Source of the DNA: a virus
IMG/VR virus record: IMGVR_UViG_3300032053_000231
Span: 1 to 36,867 of that record
Reading direction: 5' to 3' (one strand)
DNA: 36,867 nt
Shown: in pieces, positions 2,118-26,269 of the stretch
Layout: each line of letters begins with the position of its first letter
Numbering within the stretch: position 1 is the stretch's first letter
Notes under the pieces: model-generated
What the model saw: only the letters and a program-made list of their open reading frames with translations
The model's database searches: none
Told to the model about the DNA's origin: nothing
Made by a program: the position numbers and the translations under genes

Positions 2118-2845
2118 ATAAGCCACAAATTATCATAGATAATTATGAGAACAGAGGATTTCATAATTCCGATTTAGAAAAAGCATCAGAAAGAATTTTA
2201 AAAGCGGGTGGCTATAAAGATTGCTCAACAATTTGCGTGATACCTACTCGTGGCACAATTCCTGCAAGAGCCGTACAATCATGGTTTAATTTAATACCAA
2301 TGATGAACCAACCTTTTTTAAGAATGTTCATTATCGGAATGGAAGTTGGCGAGGCGTATAATAACGCTATCGAAATAATTCTATCAAACCAACATCTAAA
2401 TAATTTCAAATACATGTTAACTTTAGAGGAAGATAATCTTCCGCCTCCTGACGGTTTAATAAAGCTTTATGAAAACATGGAAGATTACGATGTTGTTGGC
2501 GGTTTGTATTGGACAAAAGGAGAGGGGGGGCAACCAATGATTTACGGAAATCCATTGGAATTTCCAAAAAACTTTTCGCCACAAGTTCCAATTGCTGATT
2601 CAGTTCAACCGTGTAATGGACTTGGTATGGGTTTTACACTTTTTAAATTAGAAATGTTTCGTAGTGGAAAAATTCAACAACCATTTTTTAAAACATTTAA
2701 CGAACATAATCCACAAACGGGAACTAAAGTTTATACTCAGGATTTATATTTTTTTGAAAATGCAGGAAGAGCTGGGTATAGGTTTGCGAGCAACAATTCT
2801 GTTCGTGTAGGGCACTATGATATTAATTCTCAAATAATTTGGTAA
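2114..2845 (+). CDS. GT-A-type glycosyltransferase-like protein
   Basis: 243 residues. The N-terminal part holds a Rossmann-like strand and turn, CVIPTRGTIPARAV (residues 41-54). It is followed by the acidic motif LEEDNLPPPDG (104-114), which sits where GT-A enzymes keep their metal-binding DxD, and then by a conserved-looking GLGMGFTLFK segment. A late YTQDLYFFENAGRAGYRF stretch resembles the acceptor-side Asp/Glu region of these folds. I therefore read it as a GT2-related transferase. Donor and acceptor cannot be told. It overlaps the small upstream gene by four bases and leads a run of modification genes. Confidence 0.65.
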   Translation: MNKPQIIIDNYENRGFHNSDLEKASERILKAGGYKDCSTICVIPTRGTIPARAVQSWFNLIPMMNQPFLRMFIIGMEVGEAYNNAIEIILSNQHLNNFKYMLTLEEDNLPPPDGLIKLYENMEDYDVVGGLYWTKGEGGQPMIYGNPLEFPKNFSPQVPIADSVQPCNGLGMGFTLFKLEMFRSGKIQQPFFKTFNEHNPQTGTKVYTQDLYFFENAGRAGYRFASNNSVRVGHYDINSQIIW

Positions 2846-2853
2846 AAAAAAAT

Positions 2854-3483
2854 ATGGAAAAAAACTTTCAACTTTGCCCACATGGGTTTTTAAAAACACC
2901 TATTGACGGTTCAAAACCACAATGTAAATGTTGTGGGGCAGAAATAAAACTTGGCGAAACAAATTGCAAACATTGTGTTGTAAAATTAGATATTGCCTGT
3001 GGACAAAATAAAAGAGAAGGATTTATCGGAATAGATATTGTAAAATGTGAAGGTGTTGATATTGTTCACGACTTAAATGTTTATCCATATCCTTTTGAAG
3101 ATAATTCAGTGGATGAAATTTTCATGTCTCACTATATTGAACATGTTCCCGATTTAATGAAATTCATGAATGAGCTTTATAGAATTTTGAAAGTTGGAGG
3201 TACAATGAGTGTTATTGCCCCGTATTATAATTCAATAAGATGTTGGCAAGACCCGACCCATTTACAGCCGATAAGTGAAGCAACTTTTCTTTATTATAAT
3301 AAGGATTGGAGAAAAGCAAATAAATTAGACCATTATCCTATCACATGTGATTTCGACTTCTCACTTGGATACATGTTCGCTCCTGAATGGGCTTCAAGAA
3401 GCGAAGAGGCAAAACAATTCGCAATAAAACATTATACCAACGTAGTAACGGATTTACAAGTTAATTTAATTAAAAAAGCATGA
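2854..3483 (+). CDS. Zinc-ribbon plus class I SAM-dependent methyltransferase
   Basis: 209 residues from the ATG at 2854. A longer reading from TTG at 2839 is possible but would overlap the upstream gene, while ATG leaves an eight-base gap. The N-terminus carries six Cys (8, 24, 26, 27, 38, 41), arranged like a zinc ribbon. Motif I, LDIACG, is at 45-50, followed by GFIGIDI. The segment PYPFEDNSVDEIFMSHYIEHV then matches the post-motif region of Methyltransf_11 enzymes. It overlaps the next gene by four bases (ATGA). Its target is probably a sugar or glycan in this cassette; that is inference from neighbours only. Confidence 0.8.
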   Translation: MEKNFQLCPHGFLKTPIDGSKPQCKCCGAEIKLGETNCKHCVVKLDIACGQNKREGFIGIDIVKCEGVDIVHDLNVYPYPFEDNSVDEIFMSHYIEHVPDLMKFMNELYRILKVGGTMSVIAPYYNSIRCWQDPTHLQPISEATFLYYNKDWRKANKLDHYPITCDFDFSLGYMFAPEWASRSEEAKQFAIKHYTNVVTDLQVNLIKKA

Positions 3484-6400
3484 TGCCAATTTTCAGTATT
3501 GTAATTCCGACGCATAAACATTTAGACGTTCTAAAAAAATGTTGCGAATCCATAATTAAATTTACAAATTTATCTGACAAAGAAATTGTCGTGGTTGCAA
3601 ATGGCTGTGGCGATGACGGCACAAAAGAATACGTTGAAAGTTTAGGCTCACCATTTAAATTAATTGAGTTTGATAAAGCGTTAGGATATGCTAAAGCAAC
3701 CAACGAAGGAATAAAAATTGCAACAGGAGAATTTATTGTTCTTTTAAATAATGATTGCGAAATTTTATGGGGAAATAATGATTGGATAAATATATTATCG
3801 CAACCATTTGAAAATCCAAAAATAGGAATGACGGGTGTTCACGAAATTTACAGCGATGAAATCAAACATAATTTTTTAGTTTTTCATTGTGTAATGATTA
3901 GAAAAAAAGTTTTTGATGAAATAGGTTTACTTGATGAAATGTTCGGCTCGTTTGGTGAAGATATTGATTTCACCGCACGATTATTAAACAATGGATATAC
4001 TTATGTAAACGTTGAAAAAAACTCAGAACAAAAAGAGACGATGAAAGTGGGAACTTTTCCGTTATATCATCAAGGTTCAACAACAGTTCACGATGAAAAT
4101 CATTCAGTAGAATATGAAAAAATAGTTCAAAGAAATTTAGAAATTTTAAAAAGGCGTTACGATAAAACCATTAAGAGACCGAAGTACAGTATAGTGATTC
4201 CAAGTTTTAATCAGTGTGATAAATTACTGAAGCCTGCCTTAGAAAGTCTTATTGAAGCAACTGATTTATCGGATGTAGAGGTTATTGTTGTTGCCAACGG
4301 GTGTACCGATAACACAGAAGAATATGTAAACTCACTTGGAGAGCCATTCAGAGTTTTAGTTTACAAAGACCAACTTGGTTATCCAAAAGCAACCAACATT
4401 GGATTGAAAGATGCGCTCGGAGAATTTATAGTGTTTTTAAATAACGATGTTGTTCTTTACAAAAATCCGAAAGGTTGGTTAAATATTTTAAGAGAGCCTT
4501 TTGATAGCGGAAGAAAAATTGGAATGACGGGTGTTATGTTATTTATTGGAGATGCTAATTTTTCCAATGATTTCATAATGTTTTTCTGTGCAATGACAAC
4601 ACGAAAAGTAATTGATGAAGTGGGTTTATTGGATGAGAACTTTGGATTAGGTGGGGTTGAGGATGTCGACTACGGATTAAGATTAATATTAGCAGGATAT
4701 GAATTAGTAGAAGTTCCTAACGACGGGAAAACAAAGCGTAGTTCAGGAATGTCATCAGGAACGTTTCCTATTTTTCATGCGGGATGTTCTACTGTTTCAA
4801 AAGAAAAAGATTGGGACGAAAATTTAAAACGAAACAACGAATATTTAAAGAAAAAATTTCCTAATTATTTTAAAGGGATAGATTGGATTGAAGAAATGTC
4901 GGACAAGCCAAAAATTTATGACGCATTTTTATTTTTTAATGAGCTTGACCTTCTTGAATTACGCTTTAAAGAATTAAACGATACCGTTGATTTTTTCGTT
5001 ATCACTGAAGCAACAATTACACATCAAGGAAATCCTAAACCGTTATATTTTAAAGAAAACGAAAAAAGATTTGAAAAATACAAAGATAAAATAATTTATA
5101 TTTTAGTTGACCACTTCCCTGTATTTAATGAAGATGATTGGAAAAAGCCTTGGGATAGGGAGCAGTGGCAAAGACATTGTTTAATCAAAGGTCTTACTAA
5201 TTGCAAGGATAACGATGTGATTATTTTATCTGATGCAGATGAAATTCCAAATGTAGAAGCGATAAAAAATTACAAAGGCGGAGGAATAAAATCATTAGAA
5301 CAAAATCTTTATTACTATGACTTCCATCATTTAGCGGAAAAAAAATGGACTTGTGCTAAAATAATGCAGTTTAAAGATGTAAAAGAAGGTAAAACAAAAA
5401 TTCAGGATAATAATCCTTTCATTTTTTCAACCTATTTACGAAATGAAGAGCATGAAATAATTAAAAATGGTGGATGGCACTTTAGTTATTTAGCTGATAC
5501 AAAAGGAATAATAAATAAATTAAAATCTTTTTCGCATAGAGAGTTTAATACACATCCGTATACAGAAGAAGAATATATTAGACAGTGCATAGATAAGAAT
5601 AAAAATTTATTTTCAGATGATGTCCTGAGTTACGTGGAAATTGACAATTCGTATCCAAAAACTATATTAGACAACATTAATAAGTATAAATCAATGGGGT
5701 TTATAAAGTCCGACGGAATTAATTATAGTGAGCTCCATAAAATAATGCAACAAACAGATGTCGGTCTATATCATGAGCTATTTCAATTGAATGTTAACCA
5801 ACTCGAAAGAAAAGACATTGAAGGAAAAACAATAATTGATATTGGAGGAAACAAGGGATATTTTTCGATACAGTGTATGGAAATGGGGGCAAAGGAAACG
5901 TATTGTTTTGAGCCTGTAAAAAGTATTTACGGTCAATTACTTGAAATTACAAAAAATATAAAAGAAATTAATCCATATAATTTAGCGGTGTTAGATGGAA
6001 GCATAAGTGAGGTACACATGCACGAAGACGGAATGGCATCAAATATTTGGGGACAAAAAAGTTCTGAGCCAATTAAGTGTATATCATTTGTCGAAGCCAT
6101 GTCGCACGTCATAGATACAAGCAATATGATTCTTAAATTAGATTGTGAAGGCTCTGAATTTGAAATCGTACTTAATTCTCCAAAAGAACTTATTCGTAAG
6201 TTTTCCACCATATACATTGAGATTCATGACGAGATGAATCCTAATTATGTTCATAAAACAAAAGAGTTATTGGATTACATTGAAAATTTAGGGTTTAATT
6301 TAAAAAAAGGATTGCAGGCTGGGGTGTATGCGCCAGATGGTAGTTTTACTCCATCACCAATATGTATATATAAATGCGAGAGAATAGAACATAAAAGTAT

Positions 6401-8402
6401 ATGGGATAATGAAAATATATCAATAGATAGGTTTGGGGCATGGAACACTTCGCATAATGATATGCACCATATAGACGAAAGTTTATGTAACTCTTTAATA
6501 TCTTTTTTAAGTAAAAATAATTATTCTGTTTATGATTTTGGATGTGGATATGGGGAATATATAAAAAAATTCAAAGATAATTCTATTATATGTAAAGGAT
6601 ATGATGGGAACAAGGAAATAAAAACAAAATCAAATGGTTTGTGTGAACAGTTAAATTTAGCTGAGAAATTTAAAATGGACAAACTTGATGTAGTTATGTC
6701 ATTAGAAGTTGGCGAACATATTCCTAAAGAATACGAAGATGTTTTCATAGAAAACTTACATAATCATAATAGTAAATATATAATTTTGAGTTGGGCTATT
6801 GAAGGACAATTCGGATTAGGTCATGTTAATGAAAAGTCTAACAATTACATTAAGGATAAAATAATTAAATTAGGCTATGAGAATGATATTGTTTTAGAAA
6901 ATGAATTAAGAAAAAGTTCAACCTTTGCTTGGTTTAAAAATACTATAATGGTTTTTAGAAAATCGAATAAATTTACAATTGGTTATATAAATCATAGTAG
7001 TGATGATTATGAAAAATATTTAGAGCCAAGTTTACGTGAGTTAAATGAAAATGAATACGAAATAATATCATTTACAAATAAAAATAATCCTGCAAGAACT
7101 TACAATCAAATAATCGAACACTCTAAAAATAAATATATAATTCTATTACATCAGGACGTTATTTTTCCGCCAACATTTTTAGATTCTATAAAAAAAACGA
7201 TAGAGGCGCATCCTGATTTTGGAGTGTTAGGATTAGTAGGGTTTGACGAGTTCGCTAACTTAAATAGATTCACGCTTCATTCAACACCAAACCAAACACA
7301 TAAAGTAGATTTTTTTGATTCTTGTTGCATTGTAATAAATAAAGAAAATAACATAAAATTTGATGATGTTATTTTTGACGATTTTCATTTATATGTTGAA
7401 GATTATTGTATGCAAGCTAAGGAAAAAGGATTGAGCAACTATACTATTTTAGCGGATTATAACAAAAACGATGATTGCAAAATAAAACATTTCGGTACTA
7501 CTTATTTTAAAAATGGCGGTAAAATGTGGGGACGATACGATGAATATTATAGCGTATTTTTAAAAAAATGGATAAAGAAATTACACGCCACCCTTAGAAC
7601 AGATACATTAAACGGTACGATACATCATGATACGGACGAGGTAATAAAACCAAGAGTATGCATTGTAATTTTAGCAACAGGTAACTACGGTGATTTTGCA
7701 AAAAATCTTGTAGAAAGTATTAATTGGTATTTTATGACCGATTGTTATAAAGACATTCTTTTGCTTTCAGATACATTAGCGCCAATGACGCAACGGCTCG
7801 GAGAAAATTGCGTGGTGCATACCCGAAGATGTAAAAGCGTTAGAAAGGCATCGTATTTTTTTGAATTGATGTTAGAAAATTTAGATATTATTTCAAAAGC
7901 AGATTATTGTTACAAGATGGATGCTGACATGATTATTTATAAAAACATATTAGGAAACGAAATTTTACCAAGTTCTGAACAAAATTATTCAATAGTAAAA
8001 CATTTTGCATTCGACCAAAAAAGAATGTGTAGTATTATGCCTGATGATTTTTCAGCAAAAATCCCAATTGAATATCAGGATTGTGATGGTTGGCAATCAT
8101 GTTTATTTGGCGGTAGAACTACTCAAATGATTGAGTTGGCAAAAGAACTTAATCAGAAAATAGTAACGGATAGAGAAAATAATAAAATGTGGGGAGCGTG
8201 GGAAGAGCCTTACGTTAATTGGTATTTAGCGTTAAGAAAAAAAGAAGTTAGAACACTATCACCTACTTATGCAACTCCTTTGTATTGGCACAGATTTCAT
8301 CCTGATTATAAAGAAAAATATTTAAACTCGGTTAACGGAGATTCAGAAAAAATATTTCATTTTAATCATACTGTTCAATTTGGTGGACACGAAGTTGGAT
8401 GA
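3480..8402 (+). CDS. 1640-residue multidomain glycosyltransferase/methyltransferase
   Basis: One uninterrupted frame with seven modules in order. GT2 (1-230, FSIVIPTHKH, LLNNDCEIL). A second GT2 (from 235, YSIVIPSFNQ, FLNNDVVLY). GT17, the MGAT3-like family (from 476, FNELDLLELR, then SDADEIP with DAD at 585-587). FkbM-type methyltransferase (IDIGGNKGYF at 786-795, LDCEGSE at 887-893). A second SAM methyltransferase (YDFGCGYG at 1018-1025). A GT-A module (from 1165, LLHQDVIFPP near 1226). A GT6-like module (from 1391, DADM at 1481-1484, LFGGRTT, then WGAWEEPYVNWYL at 1571-1583). Start is 3480 or 3483; 3480 gives an ATGA overlap with the previous gene. Fusing so many steps suggests ordered building of one glycan. 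Donors, acceptor and linkage are unknown. Confidence 0.85.
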   Translation: MMPIFSIVIPTHKHLDVLKKCCESIIKFTNLSDKEIVVVANGCGDDGTKEYVESLGSPFKLIEFDKALGYAKATNEGIKIATGEFIVLLNNDCEILWGNNDWINILSQPFENPKIGMTGVHEIYSDEIKHNFLVFHCVMIRKKVFDEIGLLDEMFGSFGEDIDFTARLLNNGYTYVNVEKNSEQKETMKVGTFPLYHQGSTTVHDENHSVEYEKIVQRNLEILKRRYDKTIKRPKYSIVIPSFNQCDKLLKPALESLIEATDLSDVEVIVVANGCTDNTEEYVNSLGEPFRVLVYKDQLGYPKATNIGLKDALGEFIVFLNNDVVLYKNPKGWLNILREPFDSGRKIGMTGVMLFIGDANFSNDFIMFFCAMTTRKVIDEVGLLDENFGLGGVEDVDYGLRLILAGYELVEVPNDGKTKRSSGMSSGTFPIFHAGCSTVSKEKDWDENLKRNNEYLKKKFPNYFKGIDWIEEMSDKPKIYDAFLFFNELDLLELRFKELNDTVDFFVITEATITHQGNPKPLYFKENEKRFEKYKDKIIYILVDHFPVFNEDDWKKPWDREQWQRHCLIKGLTNCKDNDVIILSDADEIPNVEAIKNYKGGGIKSLEQNLYYYDFHHLAEKKWTCAKIMQFKDVKEGKTKIQDNNPFIFSTYLRNEEHEIIKNGGWHFSYLADTKGIINKLKSFSHREFNTHPYTEEEYIRQCIDKNKNLFSDDVLSYVEIDNSYPKTILDNINKYKSMGFIKSDGINYSELHKIMQQTDVGLYHELFQLNVNQLERKDIEGKTIIDIGGNKGYFSIQCMEMGAKETYCFEPVKSIYGQLLEITKNIKEINPYNLAVLDGSISEVHMHEDGMASNIWGQKSSEPIKCISFVEAMSHVIDTSNMILKLDCEGSEFEIVLNSPKELIRKFSTIYIEIHDEMNPNYVHKTKELLDYIENLGFNLKKGLQAGVYAPDGSFTPSPICIYKCERIEHKSIWDNENISIDRFGAWNTSHNDMHHIDESLCNSLISFLSKNNYSVYDFGCGYGEYIKKFKDNSIICKGYDGNKEIKTKSNGLCEQLNLAEKFKMDKLDVVMSLEVGEHIPKEYEDVFIENLHNHNSKYIILSWAIEGQFGLGHVNEKSNNYIKDKIIKLGYENDIVLENELRKSSTFAWFKNTIMVFRKSNKFTIGYINHSSDDYEKYLEPSLRELNENEYEIISFTNKNNPARTYNQIIEHSKNKYIILLHQDVIFPPTFLDSIKKTIEAHPDFGVLGLVGFDEFANLNRFTLHSTPNQTHKVDFFDSCCIVINKENNIKFDDVIFDDFHLYVEDYCMQAKEKGLSNYTILADYNKNDDCKIKHFGTTYFKNGGKMWGRYDEYYSVFLKKWIKKLHATLRTDTLNGTIHHDTDEVIKPRVCIVILATGNYGDFAKNLVESINWYFMTDCYKDILLLSDTLAPMTQRLGENCVVHTRRCKSVRKASYFFELMLENLDIISKADYCYKMDADMIIYKNILGNEILPSSEQNYSIVKHFAFDQKRMCSIMPDDFSAKIPIEYQDCDGWQSCLFGGRTTQMIELAKELNQKIVTDRENNKMWGAWEEPYVNWYLALRKKEVRTLSPTYATPLYWHRFHPDYKEKYLNSVNGDSEKIFHFNHTVQFGGHEVG

Positions 8403-8426
8403 AATATTACTTTAAAAACAAAAACT

Positions 8427-8630
8427 ATGGGATATAAAGGAATGTTAGGATGTATGGGATGGGCAAGTGATGATTTGCCAATCACGATAGAATTAACTAA
8501 ACTATGGAATAAACTTGGTACTGAAAATGGATTTATTTATAGTTTGGATGATAATGTAATGCCTGAACATCTTTCAAAGTTACTGGATGCTATAAACTCG
8601 GTGAGAAAATATTTAAAACAAAAAATATGA
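8427..8630 (+). CDS. Hypothetical 67-residue protein
   Basis: A short soluble protein between the multidomain transferase and the radical SAM gene, overlapping the latter by four bases (ATGA). It begins MGYKGMLGCMGWASDDLP and ends in an amphipathic helix (EHLSKLLDAINSVRKYLKQK). One Cys, no membrane segment. I do not recognise a family. Tight coupling suggests it is co-translated with the radical SAM protein and may assist it. Confidence 0.55.
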   Translation: MGYKGMLGCMGWASDDLPITIELTKLWNKLGTENGFIYSLDDNVMPEHLSKLLDAINSVRKYLKQKI

Positions 8631-9490
8631 TTTTATATATAGACGTTGCACATTGTAATATTCGTTGTAAAATGTGCCCTGTTGGGGACGTTAGAGGGTT
8701 AAGAGAATCAACATCGGGTTTAATGAGTATTGATATGTTCAAGAAAATAGCTGATAAATTAGTTGACGAAAATATTACCATTGATAATTTTTATATTGGT
8801 AATTGGGGAGAGGCAATGCTTAATCCTGATTTGTGGAAAATAATCAGATATGCTAAACAAACATTAAATCCAAAACAAATTTTAGTTAATTCAAATTTTT
8901 CACTAACAATTAAGAATCCTGAATTATTATTAATGTCAGGAGTTACGGACATCAGAGCGTCGGTATCAGGTATGACACAAGATGTTTATGAAAAAAATCA
9001 CGCAGGAGGAAATATTGAGCGTATTTTAGAAAACTTAAAAATATTAAGTTCTATTAAACGAGATTTAAAACTATTATTGCCGAACATCGCAATGGTTTAT
9101 CATGAATATTTATATAACCAACACGAAAACGAACCTGCAATAAAATTTTGTCAGGAACACGGAATAGATTTCATGCCTATCAGATGTTATCCATGTACTT
9201 TAGAAGAAGGAATAAAATTTCACCAAGACCCACAAGCAAGAGAGTCATACAAAGACTTTATAAACATTGACGAAGAAATTTCAAGAATGAGAACAATTCC
9301 TGACGAAGTGCCTTGCGGATTGGTTGACCAAATAGTGATTAACCATAACGGAACTGTTTTTAAATGCTGTGGAACTTATACTAATAAAAATTCTTTAGGT
9401 AATATATTTGATTGGAAAATAGCAGATTTATTAGCGCATTATCCGAAGTTATGTACACTTTGTAAAAGCATTCCGTTAAGTTGGAGATAA
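8627..9490 (+). CDS. Radical SAM protein with SPASM-like C-terminus
   Basis: 287 residues. The iron-sulfur motif CxxxCxxC is at Cys10, Cys14 and Cys17 (CNIRCKMCP). It is followed by NWGEAMLNPD, the usual GE motif that binds SAM methionine. The C-terminus has further Cys (VPCGL, FKCCGTY, CTLCKS), arranged like a SPASM or twitch auxiliary cluster. Such enzymes perform radical chemistry on sugars, peptides or small molecules. Lying between two glycosyltransferase polyproteins it may modify a sugar or a virion protein; the substrate cannot be read from sequence. Translationally coupled to the small gene before it. Confidence 0.85.
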   Translation: MILYIDVAHCNIRCKMCPVGDVRGLRESTSGLMSIDMFKKIADKLVDENITIDNFYIGNWGEAMLNPDLWKIIRYAKQTLNPKQILVNSNFSLTIKNPELLLMSGVTDIRASVSGMTQDVYEKNHAGGNIERILENLKILSSIKRDLKLLLPNIAMVYHEYLYNQHENEPAIKFCQEHGIDFMPIRCYPCTLEEGIKFHQDPQARESYKDFINIDEEISRMRTIPDEVPCGLVDQIVINHNGTVFKCCGTYTNKNSLGNIFDWKIADLLAHYPKLCTLCKSIPLSWR

Positions 9491-9503
9491 TTTAAAAATA
9501 AAA

Positions 9504-12287
9504 ATGAACTACGATATATTAAAAAAACAAATGGAAGCCGAGTACGAATTTTTGTACAAGGAAATTTTCATATTCAATTCATATAATTGTGAGGAAGGCG
9601 AACTGAAAAATAGAATTGTTATTGACATCGGAGCTAACACAGGATATTTTGCCATTTACGCAATAGAAAACGGTGCTAAAAAAGTATATGCCTTTGAGCC
9701 AAATAAAGAAAACTTTAAAAAACTAATTGAAAGAACAAAAGATTTCGATAATATTATTTGCATTAATAAAGCGGTTTATAAAGACGGTGTAAAAAAATGC
9801 TACACTGTAAACGACAGCAATCCAAATTTAACTGATTACGAAAATGGAGTTAGATGTGAGGTCAGAGAAGCTGAAACGGAAGAGCAAGGAACGATAGACG
9901 TTATTTCTTTAAAAGAAATTTTAGACGGAATAAATGAACAGGTTATTTTAAAAACGGACTGCGAAGGTTCTGAGTATGATTTTTTTCTAAGCTCATCGAA
10001 AGAAACGTTACAAAAAATAGATTTAATTTATTCTGAACTTCACGATAAACTACATCCGAATACAGATTATAATGTGGAGATGCTTACTGATTTTATTGTA
10101 AGTAATGGTTTTGAATACATAAAATGTCAAATAAGATGGTCAACAGGAGTTTGGATTGGCGGACATTATATTCCTGAACGAAGCGATAAGAACGGAGATA
10201 ATAATTATTATAGGAAGTTTAAAAGACTACAAAATGTTATTTCCGAATATAAACCAAAAGTATACGACTGTTTCCCTATATTTAATGAATTAGACCTATT
10301 AGAAATAAGACTTGAAGAATTAAATTCAGTGGTTGATAAATTTATCATCACTGAGGCTAATGCTACTCATCAGGGAAATCCGAAACCGCTCTATTTAACC
10401 GAAAATATTGGGAGGTTTGAAAAATATAAAGATAAAATTGAAATTATCATTGTTGACTTATTAAATAATATTCCTGACCCTACATCAAAGCAAGATTGGA
10501 CAAGGGAGCGATTTCAAAGAAATAAAGCGTATGATTATTTAAAAAGTGTTTGCTTACCTAATGATATTGTTATTGTGTCAGACGCAGATGAGATACCAAG
10601 AGTAGAAGCTATTCAGAAATACATATCAGATAAAAAAGACGCTGTTGGAGTTTTATTACAAGATAGATTCATGTATTATTTAAATTATAAAAATATAACT
10701 ACCGATGAGCCACAGTTAAACTCAAAAATTTTAAGATTTGAGATGTTTAATAAATATAATTATCAAGAATTAACCGCTATGCGATACGCAGACACGGAAA
10801 AATTAATGCCTACGTATACAATAAATAAAGGCGGTTGGCACTTTACTTTTCAAGGCGGAATTAAAAAAGTTATCGAAAAAGTTAAGTCATTTGCACATAG
10901 GGAATATAATGTAAATGAAAAAATAAATTATGACAGGATGTTGAAAAATTTCGAGGAAGGAATTGACGTGTATGATGCAAAAACTACTTGGGAAACAGTT
11001 GAGGTTGATGAAACTTTTCCTAAAAAAATTCAAAGTGATAAACAAAAATATATTGATGACGGATGGATTAAGGAAAACAAAAAGATTGTTGGATTTAGAG
11101 GATATATAGATGCTCACTTATTGATATGTAAGTGTGGCTTTAATGGAGAAGTAATGTTTCCTGAATGTCCGTCATGTGGCAACAAAGATGTTAACCCTAC
11201 TTATATAGATAAGTATAAACAAGCAATAAAAATAGAAAAAGATAGTAAAGAAGCAATCATGAATAAAAAAAACATTCTTTGTTCAATATCTACACGGGGG
11301 AGATATGATACTACATTAGCTATGTCAATACAATCCGTATTATCACAAACGCTATTACCTGATGCGCTTTACATTTACGATGATAACGATGAGCCAAAAG
11401 ATTTACGGGAAATTCAGCATTATCATTATTTATTTAGAATGTTGGATGAGAAAAATATTTCTTGGAAAATTATATTCGGTCAAAAAAAAGGGCAACACTA
11501 CAATCATCAATTAGCAAATAAAGAAGGATATAACTGGGTATGGAGACTTGATGACGACACCATTGCCGAACCAAACGTACTCCAAACACTTTACGAAGCT
11601 ACGGATAGTACGGTAGGGGCAGTGGGTGGAAGTATACTCACGCCTCCCTTTGAAAAAGGAGTCAGAGCAACAGGTAAAATTGAAAATATAAAAGTTGAGC
11701 CTAATTTACAATGGGACTACATAAAAGAAACTAAGGAAGTTGACCATCTTCATTGTTCTTTCCTTTATAGAGCAGGTATTGTGGATTATGATTTAAGTTT
11801 GAGTCGGGTAGCTCATCGTGAAGAGACTCTGCTAACATTCGGTTTAAAAAATAAAGGATATAAAATATTAATAGTCCCTACAATCACTTGGCATCTTAAA
11901 AACAAAGATGGCGGAATTAGAGATGAAAAAAATACCATTTCTATGTACGAACACGATGAAAAAATATTTGACTCTTATTTAAATATTTGGGATGTAAATA
12001 AAACACAAAACAAATTATGTGTTATTGATGCGGGAATCGGAGACCATTATGCATTCAAAAACATTATACCATTGCTATTGAAAAAATATAAAAAATTAAC
12101 TGTTGCGGTATGTTATCCTGATGTTTTCTTTGATGAAGATAAAGAAAATATAAATTTTATTTCATTGGAGCAATCAAAACAAATATTTTCAGGCGATATT
12201 GGAATGTTTAATATTTATGTTTGGATGGATAAGAATAAATGGACAGGAAGTTTAACGGACGCATTTAAAGAATTTTATAACGTATGA
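9504..12287 (+). CDS. 927-residue FkbM / GT17 / GT2 / partial GT9 protein
   Basis: Modules in order. FkbM-type methyltransferase (IVIDIGANTGYF from 38, TDCEGSE at 151-157). GT17 (from about 250, FNELDLLEIR, SDADEIP with DAD at 360-362). A zinc-ribbon segment with Cys542, 544, 555 and 558. GT2 (from 590, ISTRGRYDTT, LDDDT at 682-686). A final 90 residues from about 837 (CVIDAGIGDHYAFKNIIP), which resemble the N-terminal half of GT9 heptosyltransferases. The GT9-like C-terminal half is the next gene, which overlaps by four bases. The FkbM and GT17 modules are paralogous to those in the 1640-residue protein but in opposite order. Confidence 0.8.
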   Translation: MNYDILKKQMEAEYEFLYKEIFIFNSYNCEEGELKNRIVIDIGANTGYFAIYAIENGAKKVYAFEPNKENFKKLIERTKDFDNIICINKAVYKDGVKKCYTVNDSNPNLTDYENGVRCEVREAETEEQGTIDVISLKEILDGINEQVILKTDCEGSEYDFFLSSSKETLQKIDLIYSELHDKLHPNTDYNVEMLTDFIVSNGFEYIKCQIRWSTGVWIGGHYIPERSDKNGDNNYYRKFKRLQNVISEYKPKVYDCFPIFNELDLLEIRLEELNSVVDKFIITEANATHQGNPKPLYLTENIGRFEKYKDKIEIIIVDLLNNIPDPTSKQDWTRERFQRNKAYDYLKSVCLPNDIVIVSDADEIPRVEAIQKYISDKKDAVGVLLQDRFMYYLNYKNITTDEPQLNSKILRFEMFNKYNYQELTAMRYADTEKLMPTYTINKGGWHFTFQGGIKKVIEKVKSFAHREYNVNEKINYDRMLKNFEEGIDVYDAKTTWETVEVDETFPKKIQSDKQKYIDDGWIKENKKIVGFRGYIDAHLLICKCGFNGEVMFPECPSCGNKDVNPTYIDKYKQAIKIEKDSKEAIMNKKNILCSISTRGRYDTTLAMSIQSVLSQTLLPDALYIYDDNDEPKDLREIQHYHYLFRMLDEKNISWKIIFGQKKGQHYNHQLANKEGYNWVWRLDDDTIAEPNVLQTLYEATDSTVGAVGGSILTPPFEKGVRATGKIENIKVEPNLQWDYIKETKEVDHLHCSFLYRAGIVDYDLSLSRVAHREETLLTFGLKNKGYKILIVPTITWHLKNKDGGIRDEKNTISMYEHDEKIFDSYLNIWDVNKTQNKLCVIDAGIGDHYAFKNIIPLLLKKYKKLTVAVCYPDVFFDEDKENINFISLEQSKQIFSGDIGMFNIYVWMDKNKWTGSLTDAFKEFYNV

Positions 12288-24027: not shown

Positions 24028-24167
24028 TTTACAACTAAAACCCAATTATTACCTATTTTTTTAGCCACAACATTTTCAGGCAATCTACTTTCAGTGATTT
24101 GAAGTAAAACAGCCTGTCTCGTTACTTTAAGTTTTTTTGCGTATTCGGTTACGGATAATTCTTTCAT
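24024..24167 (-). CDS. 47-residue helix-turn-helix protein (excisionase/MerR-like)
   Basis: ATG at 24167, stop TGA at 24024-24026. It overlaps by four bases both the DNA methyltransferase gene upstream and the replication gene downstream, which supports its reality. The sequence LSVTEYAKKLKVTRQAVLLQI is a helix-turn-helix, followed by a short wing (PENVVAKKIGNNWVL). This is the compact HTH_17/excisionase type, which binds DNA or serves as an accessory to a larger protein. It may regulate this operon or help replication initiation. Confidence 0.75.
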   Translation of the reverse strand: MKELSVTEYAKKLKVTRQAVLLQITESRLPENVVAKKIGNNWVLVVK

Positions 24168-25327
24168 TTATTTGGCTTTAAAATCGTTTCCCATACGTGC
24201 TCTGCAATTGCTTTCATCATCAGAGGAGGAACAGCTCTTCCGATGCGCTCCCATTGTTTACTATACGTTCCTGTTAATATATAATCAGAAGGGAATGAGC
24301 TTATCACTTTTAATTCAGGGATGCTTAGTTTTCTCAATGCTTTTTCAGAATCGTCGAACTCTACTTCTACAAGCCCATTTGCAAGCCCCTTATATTGTGA
24401 AAGAATAGTTGGCGACACGTCTTTTGATGAATCAGCAAATAATTTAGTTTCATCATTTCTGTCTTTATGAGAAGCGTTTACTCCATGTCTGACTACTTTA
24501 TATCTTCTCTGAACACCAAGACCGTCAGCTAAAACAGTAAAGCACACGCCATTTTTCTGTACTCTTCTTGGTTCTTTTTCTCCAAATGCTTTTATGGTTG
24601 CTTCGATGCACTCAATATCATTTAGTGCTTCCCCAAGAGAAACTATTTCGTTTAAGGGTTTAGGATAAGTAATATCTGCTTTTAAATCCTTTCTAACACC
24701 TATAAAAATTGTTCTTTCTCTATTTTGCGGAACTCCATAATTTTTTGCATTTATAACTTTATATCTGACGTTGTAACCGCAATTAACGAGCGAATGATAA
24801 ATTGTATCTTCTTCTCCACCAAACATATTAAATTGGTCGCTACCTAATAAATCCTTTGACGCACCTGACGTTAATCCCGCAACGTTTTCACAAATAAAAA
24901 CTTTTGGTTGTAATCCATTTAAAATTCTTGTAAATTCAAAAAATAAATCGTCCGTTCTTTGTTCTGTATCAGAATATTTTTTTATTTGTCCCCACATTTC
25001 TTCTTTTTTTCCCGCAATAGAAAAGCTGCTGCAAGGTGGTGAACCGTCCAAAATATCTAATTCTCCTTTTTTAAGTCCTATTTTATTTAAAATTTCTTCG
25101 GCAGTTAGCTCTCTAATGTCTTGTGGGAAAATAGGTGTATCAGGATAATTTGCTCTATATGTTTCCTGAGCAGCGGGTATAAATTCGCTCATAGCTAAAA
25201 CGTCTCCACCTGCCAATCTATAACCTGTTGACGAACCGCCTCCGCCTGCAAATGTTGAAACGGCAGTAAATAATTTTTTTGCAGATTGCTCTCTTACAAA
25301 ATTCATATCATAAATAAATGGCTTCAT
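24164..25327 (-). CDS. DNA cytosine-5 methyltransferase with Arg in motif X (predicted carboxymethyltransferase)
   Basis: 387 residues, full set of C5-MTase motifs: I FAGGGGSSTG (26-35), IV GSPPCSSFS with catalytic Cys99, VI ENVAGL (147-152), VIII QNRERTIFIG (201-210), IX RKLSIPELKVISSFP (332-346) and X QWERIGRAVPPLM (358-370). The target-recognition region is between about 212 and 331; the site it reads is unknown. Motif X normally reads GNAV or GNSV; here Asn is Arg364 (AGA, 24236-24238). I recall that a basic residue at the matching Asn374 of M.MpeI let that enzyme use carboxy-SAM and form 5-carboxymethylcytosine. The gene is coupled by ATGA to chorismate mutase and sits downstream of cmoA, so I predict a cytosine carboxymethyltransferase. 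Plain methylation remains possible. Confidence 0.9.
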   Translation of the reverse strand: MKPFIYDMNFVREQSAKKLFTAVSTFAGGGGSSTGYRLAGGDVLAMSEFIPAAQETYRANYPDTPIFPQDIRELTAEEILNKIGLKKGELDILDGSPPCSSFSIAGKKEEMWGQIKKYSDTEQRTDDLFFEFTRILNGLQPKVFICENVAGLTSGASKDLLGSDQFNMFGGEEDTIYHSLVNCGYNVRYKVINAKNYGVPQNRERTIFIGVRKDLKADITYPKPLNEIVSLGEALNDIECIEATIKAFGEKEPRRVQKNGVCFTVLADGLGVQRRYKVVRHGVNASHKDRNDETKLFADSSKDVSPTILSQYKGLANGLVEVEFDDSEKALRKLSIPELKVISSFPSDYILTGTYSKQWERIGRAVPPLMMKAIAEHVWETILKPNK

Positions 25328-25590
25328 AATTCTTGTTGGATTTTAATGCTGTATTTGTGTATTGTGTTATAGATTTCTGTTATAAAATTTTCGTCGTAAC
25401 CAAATGACGCTATCGTTTTTATTTTTTCTTGCAATAATTCATCGAACCTTTTTTCATCAATGATTGGAATGTTATTTTGTTTTTTGAAAGTTCCAATATA
25501 TTTAGAAATTATCATTCTCTCTATTAATGCATCAATAATTTTATTATCAACGCCATCAATTCGTTTTCTATATTTTTCTAACTCTGACAT
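25324..25590 (-). CDS. Chorismate mutase, AroQ class
   Basis: 88 residues, a free-standing AroQ domain. Aligned without gaps to E. coli chorismate mutase (recalled, offset three), the active-site residues Arg11, Arg28, Lys39, Asp48, Arg51, Ser84 and Gln88 are present as Arg8, Arg25, Lys36, Asp45, Arg48, Ser81 and Gln85. Glu52, which touches the chorismate hydroxyl, is Phe49. It converts chorismate to prephenate in the cytoplasm. It starts directly at the stop of the CmoA-like gene with no gap and overlaps the methyltransferase by four bases. Since CmoA consumes prephenate, its likely job is to feed carboxy-SAM synthesis. Confidence 0.88.
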   Translation of the reverse strand: MSELEKYRKRIDGVDNKIIDALIERMIISKYIGTFKKQNNIPIIDEKRFDELLQEKIKTIASFGYDENFITEIYNTIHKYSIKIQQEL

Positions 25591-26226
25591 TTATTTTATT
25601 GCTATTAGTCCTACGAAGTTATAAGATTGCCAAAAAGATGTTATAGTTTTAAATCCTGCTGACTGTAATAGGTGAATATTTTGTTGCATCGAGTTGGGTT
25701 TCATTATATATCTTAAATCTTTTTCTTTCTTAATTATTTCTTCTTCTGTAAAGTGATTGCCTTTGTAGTCATAATGACTAAAGGATAAAACTTCTTGCAT
25801 CATTCCATTTTCCTGATAAATTTTTTCGCAAAGAATAAAAGCTCCGCCACTATTCAGCCCATCATAAACGGTTTTACAAAAGTTTTCTCTACTCATTCTG
25901 TTTAAAAATTGCATTGTAAATATTGAATAAACAATACAAGCGTTTTTTACTTCAAATTCCCCATTCAAATCAATATTTTTAAACTCTATTTCACTATCCT
26001 TCTCAGGCATTAATTTAGCATTGTCATATCCTATTTTTAAATTTGGATACTTAATAGATTTTAATAATTTACCTGTGGAGCAACCCAAATCGTAAATGGC
26101 AGTGTCTTTTGTAATGAAATATTCCGACATTGATAAAATGGTATTTATTAATACGTCATAATTTGGGATTGATTTTGATATATGTTCATCAAAATCTTTT
26201 ATGGTATTAAAATCAAACTTGTTCAT
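25591..26226 (-). CDS. cmoA: CmoA-like carboxy-S-adenosylmethionine synthase
   Basis: 211 residues from ATG 26226; a TTG start at 26268 would add 14 residues outside the conserved domain. Text parallels E. coli CmoA (recalled): IPNYDVLINTILSMSEYF to SVPGYSNII, YDLGCSTG (45-52) to YDLGCSLG, FTMQFL (103-108) to FTLQFL, YDGLNSGGAFILCEKI to YQGLNPGGALVLSEKF, FWQSYNFVGLIAIK (198-211) to WFQCFNFGSLVALK. CmoA makes carboxy-SAM from SAM and prephenate. One caution: the position of E. coli Arg199 reads Glu168 inside KKEK. No cmoB-like tRNA gene is seen here, so the product is probably used by the DNA methyltransferase two genes on. Confidence 0.85.
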   Translation of the reverse strand: MNKFDFNTIKDFDEHISKSIPNYDVLINTILSMSEYFITKDTAIYDLGCSTGKLLKSIKYPNLKIGYDNAKLMPEKDSEIEFKNIDLNGEFEVKNACIVYSIFTMQFLNRMSRENFCKTVYDGLNSGGAFILCEKIYQENGMMQEVLSFSHYDYKGNHFTEEEIIKKEKDLRYIMKPNSMQQNIHLLQSAGFKTITSFWQSYNFVGLIAIK

Positions 26227-26237
26227 GTCGGAAGATG

Positions 26238-26269
26238 CAAATTTAATACTTAACTTGCTATTTGGCAAG
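26238..26269 (-). promoter_or_regulatory. Possible promoter for the carboxy-SAM cassette
   Basis: On the minus strand, TAAATTTG (26245-26238) fits the Bacteroidota -7 element. CTTG (26269-26266) lies 20 bases upstream, one mismatch from the -33 TTTG. A transcript from here would have a leader of only a few bases before ATG 26226, which is unusual. A five-base hairpin (CTTGC and GCAAG) overlaps it. Confidence 0.35.

Follow-up and report, generated by a model that had tools for sequence, protein, structure and literature searches.

The window, by which we mean the whole stretch of viral DNA analysed here (36,867 nucleotides), carries on its minus strand three consecutive genes, cmoA, a chorismate mutase gene and cmoX, packed without gaps. 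The features on which the argument turns are as follows.

25591-26268, minus strand: predicted CmoA, carboxy-SAM synthase (matches to TIGR00740, phrog_4752 and PDB entries)
25324-25590, minus strand: stand-alone AroQ-type chorismate mutase of 88 residues (PF01817), the predicted prephenate supplier
25324-25327, minus strand: ATGA overlap of the chorismate mutase stop and the cmoX start, read from the sequence
24164-25327, minus strand: predicted CmoX-type DNA cytosine C5-carboxymethyltransferase of 387 residues with an ATG start (PF00145)
25031-25042, minus strand: SPPC motif IV (Ser96-Pro97-Pro98-Cys99), invariant in alignments A4 and A6
24236-24238, minus strand: codon AGA for Arg364 in motif X, equivalent to SpCmoX Arg350 and M.HhaI Asn304 in the alignment with PDB entry 8yf3

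The cmoA ORF opens at a TTG at 26268, the likelier start being the ATG at 26226 (MNKFDF), and its TAA stop directly abuts the ATG of the chorismate mutase gene. The three genes probably form one tight, translationally coupled block, and their order (cmoA, chorismate mutase, methyltransferase) agrees with the earlier note, which had placed the methyltransferase two genes from cmoA.

The minus-strand ORF at 25327-24164 matches the C5 methyltransferase family PF00145 with an E-value of 3.6e-52. Its best PDB sequence match is 8yf3 (E 1.1e-72), followed by M.HaeIII (E 8.6e-18), and the alignment with 8yf3 spans nearly the whole protein, setting the catalytic Cys99 on SpCmoX Cys98 and Arg364, in the context ERIGRAVPP, on Arg350. 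An AlphaFold2 model of the enzyme (mean pLDDT 80; region 241-273 poor) likewise retrieved 8yf3 as its best Foldseek match (E 3e-31). This entry, published in December 2025, shows SpCmoX from Synechococcus phage S-B43 in complex with carboxy-SAM (Cx-SAM) (PMC12783734). In SpCmoX, Arg350 stands where M.HhaI has Asn304 and touches the carboxymethyl group/carboxylate of Cx-SAM, which is the sole cofactor accepted by the wild-type enzyme; the target motif shown is GC (PMC12783734). The R350N variant accepts neither SAM nor Cx-SAM (PMC12783734), so that an Arg364Asn exchange need not restore the use of SAM. Further Cx-SAM pocket residues present in the window enzyme (F26, E48, F49, D70 and C99) are common to C5 enzymes generally. 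The earlier note had read AGA as an Arg at the motif X Asn position and had taken it as a switch to carboxy-SAM. The codon and the alignment with 8yf3 bear out the residue, and its counterpart in 8yf3 contacts the cofactor's carboxymethyl group instead of pointing away (PMC12783734). The carboxy-SAM reading is supported as right in substance, the natural switch having already been published as CmoX; an enzyme of this kind, with Arg in motif X and CmoA beside it, is already known (PMC12783734).

To relate the motif X residue to gene neighbourhood, viral and genome contigs were scanned with CmoX profiles whose patterns derived from motifs I and IV, motif X not being used, and a CmoA scan added loci picked for having cmoA; counts were deduplicated, and at least 3 kb was required on both flanks. 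Arg and cmoA went together: 60 CmoX-like enzymes had both, five had Arg without cmoA, none had cmoA without Arg, and 30 had neither (22 Asn, seven Met and one Leu; Fisher 7e-20). Because the loci from the CmoA scan were chosen for cmoA, the cleanest table is that of the genome contigs alone, with 18, 1, 0 and 28 enzymes in the same four classes (p 4e-12). On a tree, the Arg/cmoA label needs only about four changes, so that these cases are not independent events, and their treatment as independent pairs was dropped. Among the five exceptions with Arg, L193 has cmoA on another contig of the same genome and Erwinia phage Alexandra has it about 16 kb distant; the remaining three (L025, L027 and L075) are contigs, perhaps incomplete, and L025 (63-71% identical) has the Arg and no cmoA within its 34.7-kb contig. 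Three further enzymes with no Arg and no cmoA seen (L188, L195 and L016) are nested within Arg clades, the first two having one short flank. The last of these, at L016 4010-5227 in Methylophilales phage Melnitz-3, belongs to the CmoX clade and has Leu at motif X; the 13-kb stretch read shows no cmoA, and loss or another cofactor is possible.

All core C5 motifs are present in the window enzyme, and it might on that account be taken for an ordinary 5-methylcytosine methyltransferase in which the Arg is neutral or merely tuning, the more so as natural motif X is not absolutely Asn. A PF00145 sample of Bacteroidota and Chloroflexota gave 59 readable ordinary C5 enzymes, partly read by eye, in which the position was Asn in 53, Asp in three, Met in two and Arg in one; the Met and Asp cases show such latitude, and the sole Arg belongs to the CmoX of the L193 genome, which has cmoA. 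Motif X Arg is accordingly not common among ordinary enzymes lacking cmoA, and every member of the cmoA-linked clade has it, in keeping with the earlier note's view that a chance substitution was unlikely. With cmoA in the same operon, and SpCmoX, which has the same Arg, taking only Cx-SAM (PMC12783734), we consider an ordinary 5-methylcytosine enzyme very improbable here. A Bacteroidota locus (L348) chosen only for cmoA beside a C5 enzyme, before its motif X was read, proved to read GRSVPP.

Two variations on the arrangement were observed in passing. In Staphylococcus phages (L022 8019-9718 and L024 7977-10495), the C5 methyltransferase next to cmoA is divergent and reads Gly at motif X (GGVINQ), and L024 additionally carries a CmoY homologue; these enzymes, which may embody a second way to bind Cx-SAM, were kept outside the counts and handled as a different branch. 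Elsewhere a tandem pair of CmoX-like genes lies beside cmoA (L095, L064, L134, L140, L142, L145, L080 and L152), perhaps reflecting two target sites.

The window CmoA matches phrog_4752 with an E-value of 1.1e-55 and TIGR00740 with an E-value of 9.1e-39 over 209 residues, its 133.5 bits falling below the curated cut-off of 193.3, as do the scores of the other phage CmoAs checked likewise. PDB matches include H. influenzae YecO (1im8) and E. coli CmoA (4iwn), and the experimentally active SpCmoA is 42% identical. Phage-type CmoAs, SpCmoA included, do not keep the Arg found at position 199 of E. coli CmoA and have instead a conserved Arg four residues on. The cellular CmoA of E. coli serves the cmo5U34 modification of tRNA, and the phage protein could in principle do the same, its proximity to the methyltransferase being incidental. 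We find this scarcely credible: phage S-B43 is without CmoB (PMC12783734), CmoA at cut-off level occurs in six of 148 sampled Bacteroidota genomes (the host may not be Bacteroidota), and CmoA and CmoX are found together across otherwise different phages.

The 88-residue ORF between cmoA and cmoX matches PF01817 (CM_2, type II chorismate mutase) with an E-value of 9.6e-20 and 71 bits against a cut-off of 27, and the sequence profiles favour mutase models over the isochorismate lyase model NF005475. An ungapped alignment to 1ecm sets R8, R25, K36, D45, R48, S81 and Q85 on R11, R28, K39, D48, R51, S84 and Q88 of the E. coli chorismate mutase (EcCM), the seven residues of its active site; the seven are invariant also in three fused relatives described below. 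The AlphaFold2 model (pLDDT 90) has 1ecm as its best Foldseek match (TM 0.90, rmsd about 1.0). In its H1-H2 loop the protein further retains a Pro and an Asp that have been tied to naturally efficient chorismate mutases (PMC7762937). From sequence and model, it is predicted to convert chorismate to prephenate.

Profile searches of fetched contigs for chorismate mutase in relatives revealed three viral contigs in which a DAHP synthase fused to a chorismate mutase (DAHPS-CM) occupies the same position between cmoA and cmoX.

L001, 608-1579: fused DAHP synthase-chorismate mutase
L002, 3821-4819: fused DAHP synthase-chorismate mutase
L103, 94-1065: fused DAHP synthase-chorismate mutase

These fusions are about 320 residues long. 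In L103 the tail only of cmoA is present, at the contig end, and two tandem CmoX genes follow the fusion; in L001 the DAHPS domain is N-terminal and the CM domain C-terminal, the order described for Prevotella and Porphyromonas (PMC12202928). The nearest cellular relatives of the fusion, among the Bacteroidota sampled, are Bacteroidota DAHPS-CM proteins at 37-44% identity, and a Bacteroidota host would be suggested, judged from the DAHPS-CM relatives only. A CM_2 profile search of 100 whole CmoX/CmoA records found no case beyond these three, so that chorismate mutase is present in four of about 101 CmoX/CmoA virus records, the window included, always between cmoA and cmoX; at this frequency it is accessory and not a requirement. 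A scan of viral contigs with the single chorismate mutase sequence gave no match, its seed patterns being too specific, and the A7 profile scan recovered the same three loci and nothing further, so that how often viruses in general carry a chorismate mutase is poorly measured. In the stretches compared, cmoA, cmoX and the CM domain are all that the window recognisably has in common with its nearest CmoX relatives, and hence the cassette appears to be passed among phages; a search for a close phage record for the window found none.

Other loci bear some resemblance to this arrangement. In Verrucomicrobiota MAGs (L200 9622-11927 and copies L274-L286) there are several CmoX-CmoA loci each, most of them with a CM-like ORF ahead in which the first five catalytic residues are conserved; since these ORFs end before the Ser84/Gln88 helix, they were rejected as full support. 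In two phages, cmoX is separated from cmoA (or cmoY) by an ORF of the uracil-DNA-glycosylase superfamily (L003 9492-9956 and L109 11468-11923). A 'phage' record with a good chorismate mutase match (L021) was set aside as probably bacterial, because its DAHPS-CM adjoins genes for prephenate dehydrogenase and DXP synthase.

What the phage gains from a chorismate mutase can be read in two ways. The enzyme, or DAHPS-CM in the relatives, might boost the Phe and Tyr from which phage proteins are made, in which case its position in the operon would be incidental: cellular chorismate mutase feeds Phe and Tyr, the unverified, bacterial-looking L021 record couples DAHPS-CM to prephenate dehydrogenase, and a study of the rumen virome, in which viral metabolic genes of DNMT1 type, for asparagine synthase and for chorismate mutase were each reported on their own, assigned the last to aromatic amino acids (PMC10465536). 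This is improbable in our judgement, as all four viral copies sit exactly between cmoA and cmoX with no other in 101 records, the genes next to the four copies include no recognisable prephenate dehydratase or dehydrogenase, and prephenate is the co-substrate of CmoA (PMC12783734). We think it likely instead that some phages encode their own prephenate supply for DNA carboxymethylation, in the form of a chorismate mutase or DAHPS-CM between cmoA and cmoX. The chorismate mutase gene in this position appears to be the new part of the present locus. We found no link in the literature between chorismate mutase or DAHPS-CM and a cmoA-cmoX operon; the word 'chorismate' is absent from the main text of the 2025 CmoX paper (its supplements lay outside the search), and that paper lists prephenate availability as needing work (PMC12783734). 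The locus thus addresses a question left by that study, namely the source of prephenate.

No PF00733 Asn_synthase domain, such as a CmoY-type ligase would have, was found in the 36.9-kb record even at an E-value of 0.1, and the full CmoA-CmoX-CmoY set is thus not present in the window. The predicted product is therefore plain 5-carboxymethylcytosine (5cxmC), unless a ligase lies outside the record; as the record may be a fragment, the missing ligase is not proof of absence. In S-B43, CmoY amidates 5cxmC with glycine (PMC12783734), and 5cxmC might here too be a mere intermediate, amidated in like manner by a ligase encoded elsewhere in the phage genome or belonging to another family. CmoY homologues go with CmoX in many relatives and the window may be an incomplete genome, both of which lend this some weight; against it stand the negative domain search and the nearest relatives (L001, L002, L103, L020 and L108), in which the genes after cmoX are replication genes and not ligases. 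On balance we regard amidation as unlikely, and retain unligated 5cxmC as the expected product.

Five palindromic tetramers, GATC, GGCC, CCGG, CGCG and CTAG, are wholly absent from the window (1-36867), against an expectation of 32-88 for each; GCGC occurs about as often as expected (38 versus 37.6), and AGCT and TGCA are also kept. The missing tetramers are a sign of strong restriction pressure, and their absence fits a protective role of the modification without revealing its target. Palindrome avoidance was considered as a readout of CmoX specificity and rejected, since GpC is contradicted by the absent GGCC and CGCG; the specificity may differ from that of SpCmoX. At a distance from the operon, window positions 2839-12287 encode a methyltransferase, a 1640-residue multi-domain glycosyltransferase/methyltransferase protein, a radical SAM protein and a 927-residue glycosyltransferase/methyltransferase protein, a glycan or decoration cluster unusual for a phage.

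Taken together, these observations lead us to propose, with a probability of roughly 0.8, that a three-gene phage operon makes 5cxmC in viral DNA, the chorismate mutase securing prephenate. As its fold and conserved residues suggest, the small chorismate mutase would convert host chorismate to prephenate. CmoA would then combine prephenate with SAM to give carboxy-SAM, as has been shown experimentally for its homologue SpCmoA, and Cys99 of CmoX would attack C6 of cytosine and the carboxymethyl group pass to C5, as has been shown experimentally for the homologue SpCmoX. Arg364 would bind the carboxylate of the cofactor and so make the enzyme use Cx-SAM to the exclusion of SAM, and the unligated 5cxmC may mask sites from restriction enzymes. 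Where the published system takes prephenate from the host, chorismate mutase, or DAHPS-CM in the relatives, would secure it, and the fusion could in addition increase the flow into the shikimate pathway. Chorismate mutase, CmoA and CmoX would form a small, self-contained cassette capable of turning chorismate and SAM into Cx-SAM and of writing 5cxmC. If this is true, viral DNA modification is tied to control of host aromatic metabolism, and part of the viral metabolic genes labelled 'aromatic amino acid' may in reality serve DNA modification, which suggests a rereading of some viral chorismate mutases, DAHP synthases and asparagine synthases now counted as 'auxiliary metabolic genes'.

Among known systems, the closest likeness is to CmoX, CmoA and CmoY of S-B43: both loci have a C5-type enzyme with SPPC and a motif X Arg and a phage-type CmoA close by, the window proteins aligning with their S-B43 counterparts at 45% identity for the methyltransferase and 42% for CmoA. 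They differ in that the slot filled in S-B43 by the CmoY glycine ligase is occupied in the window by chorismate mutase. The engineered M.MpeI N374K resembles the window enzyme in that a basic residue at the motif X Asn permits the use of Cx-SAM (PMC12783734); that enzyme is a CG-specific product of engineering with Lys at the position, whereas the window enzyme is natural, has Arg, and is accompanied by its own CmoA and chorismate mutase. The chorismate mutase itself shares the fold and the seven active-site residues of AroQ enzymes, typified by the E. coli domain (1ecm), and is set apart from these and from the DAHPS-CM proteins of Bacteroidota type in being phage-borne, within a cmoA-cmoX operon and without genes for aromatic amino acids.
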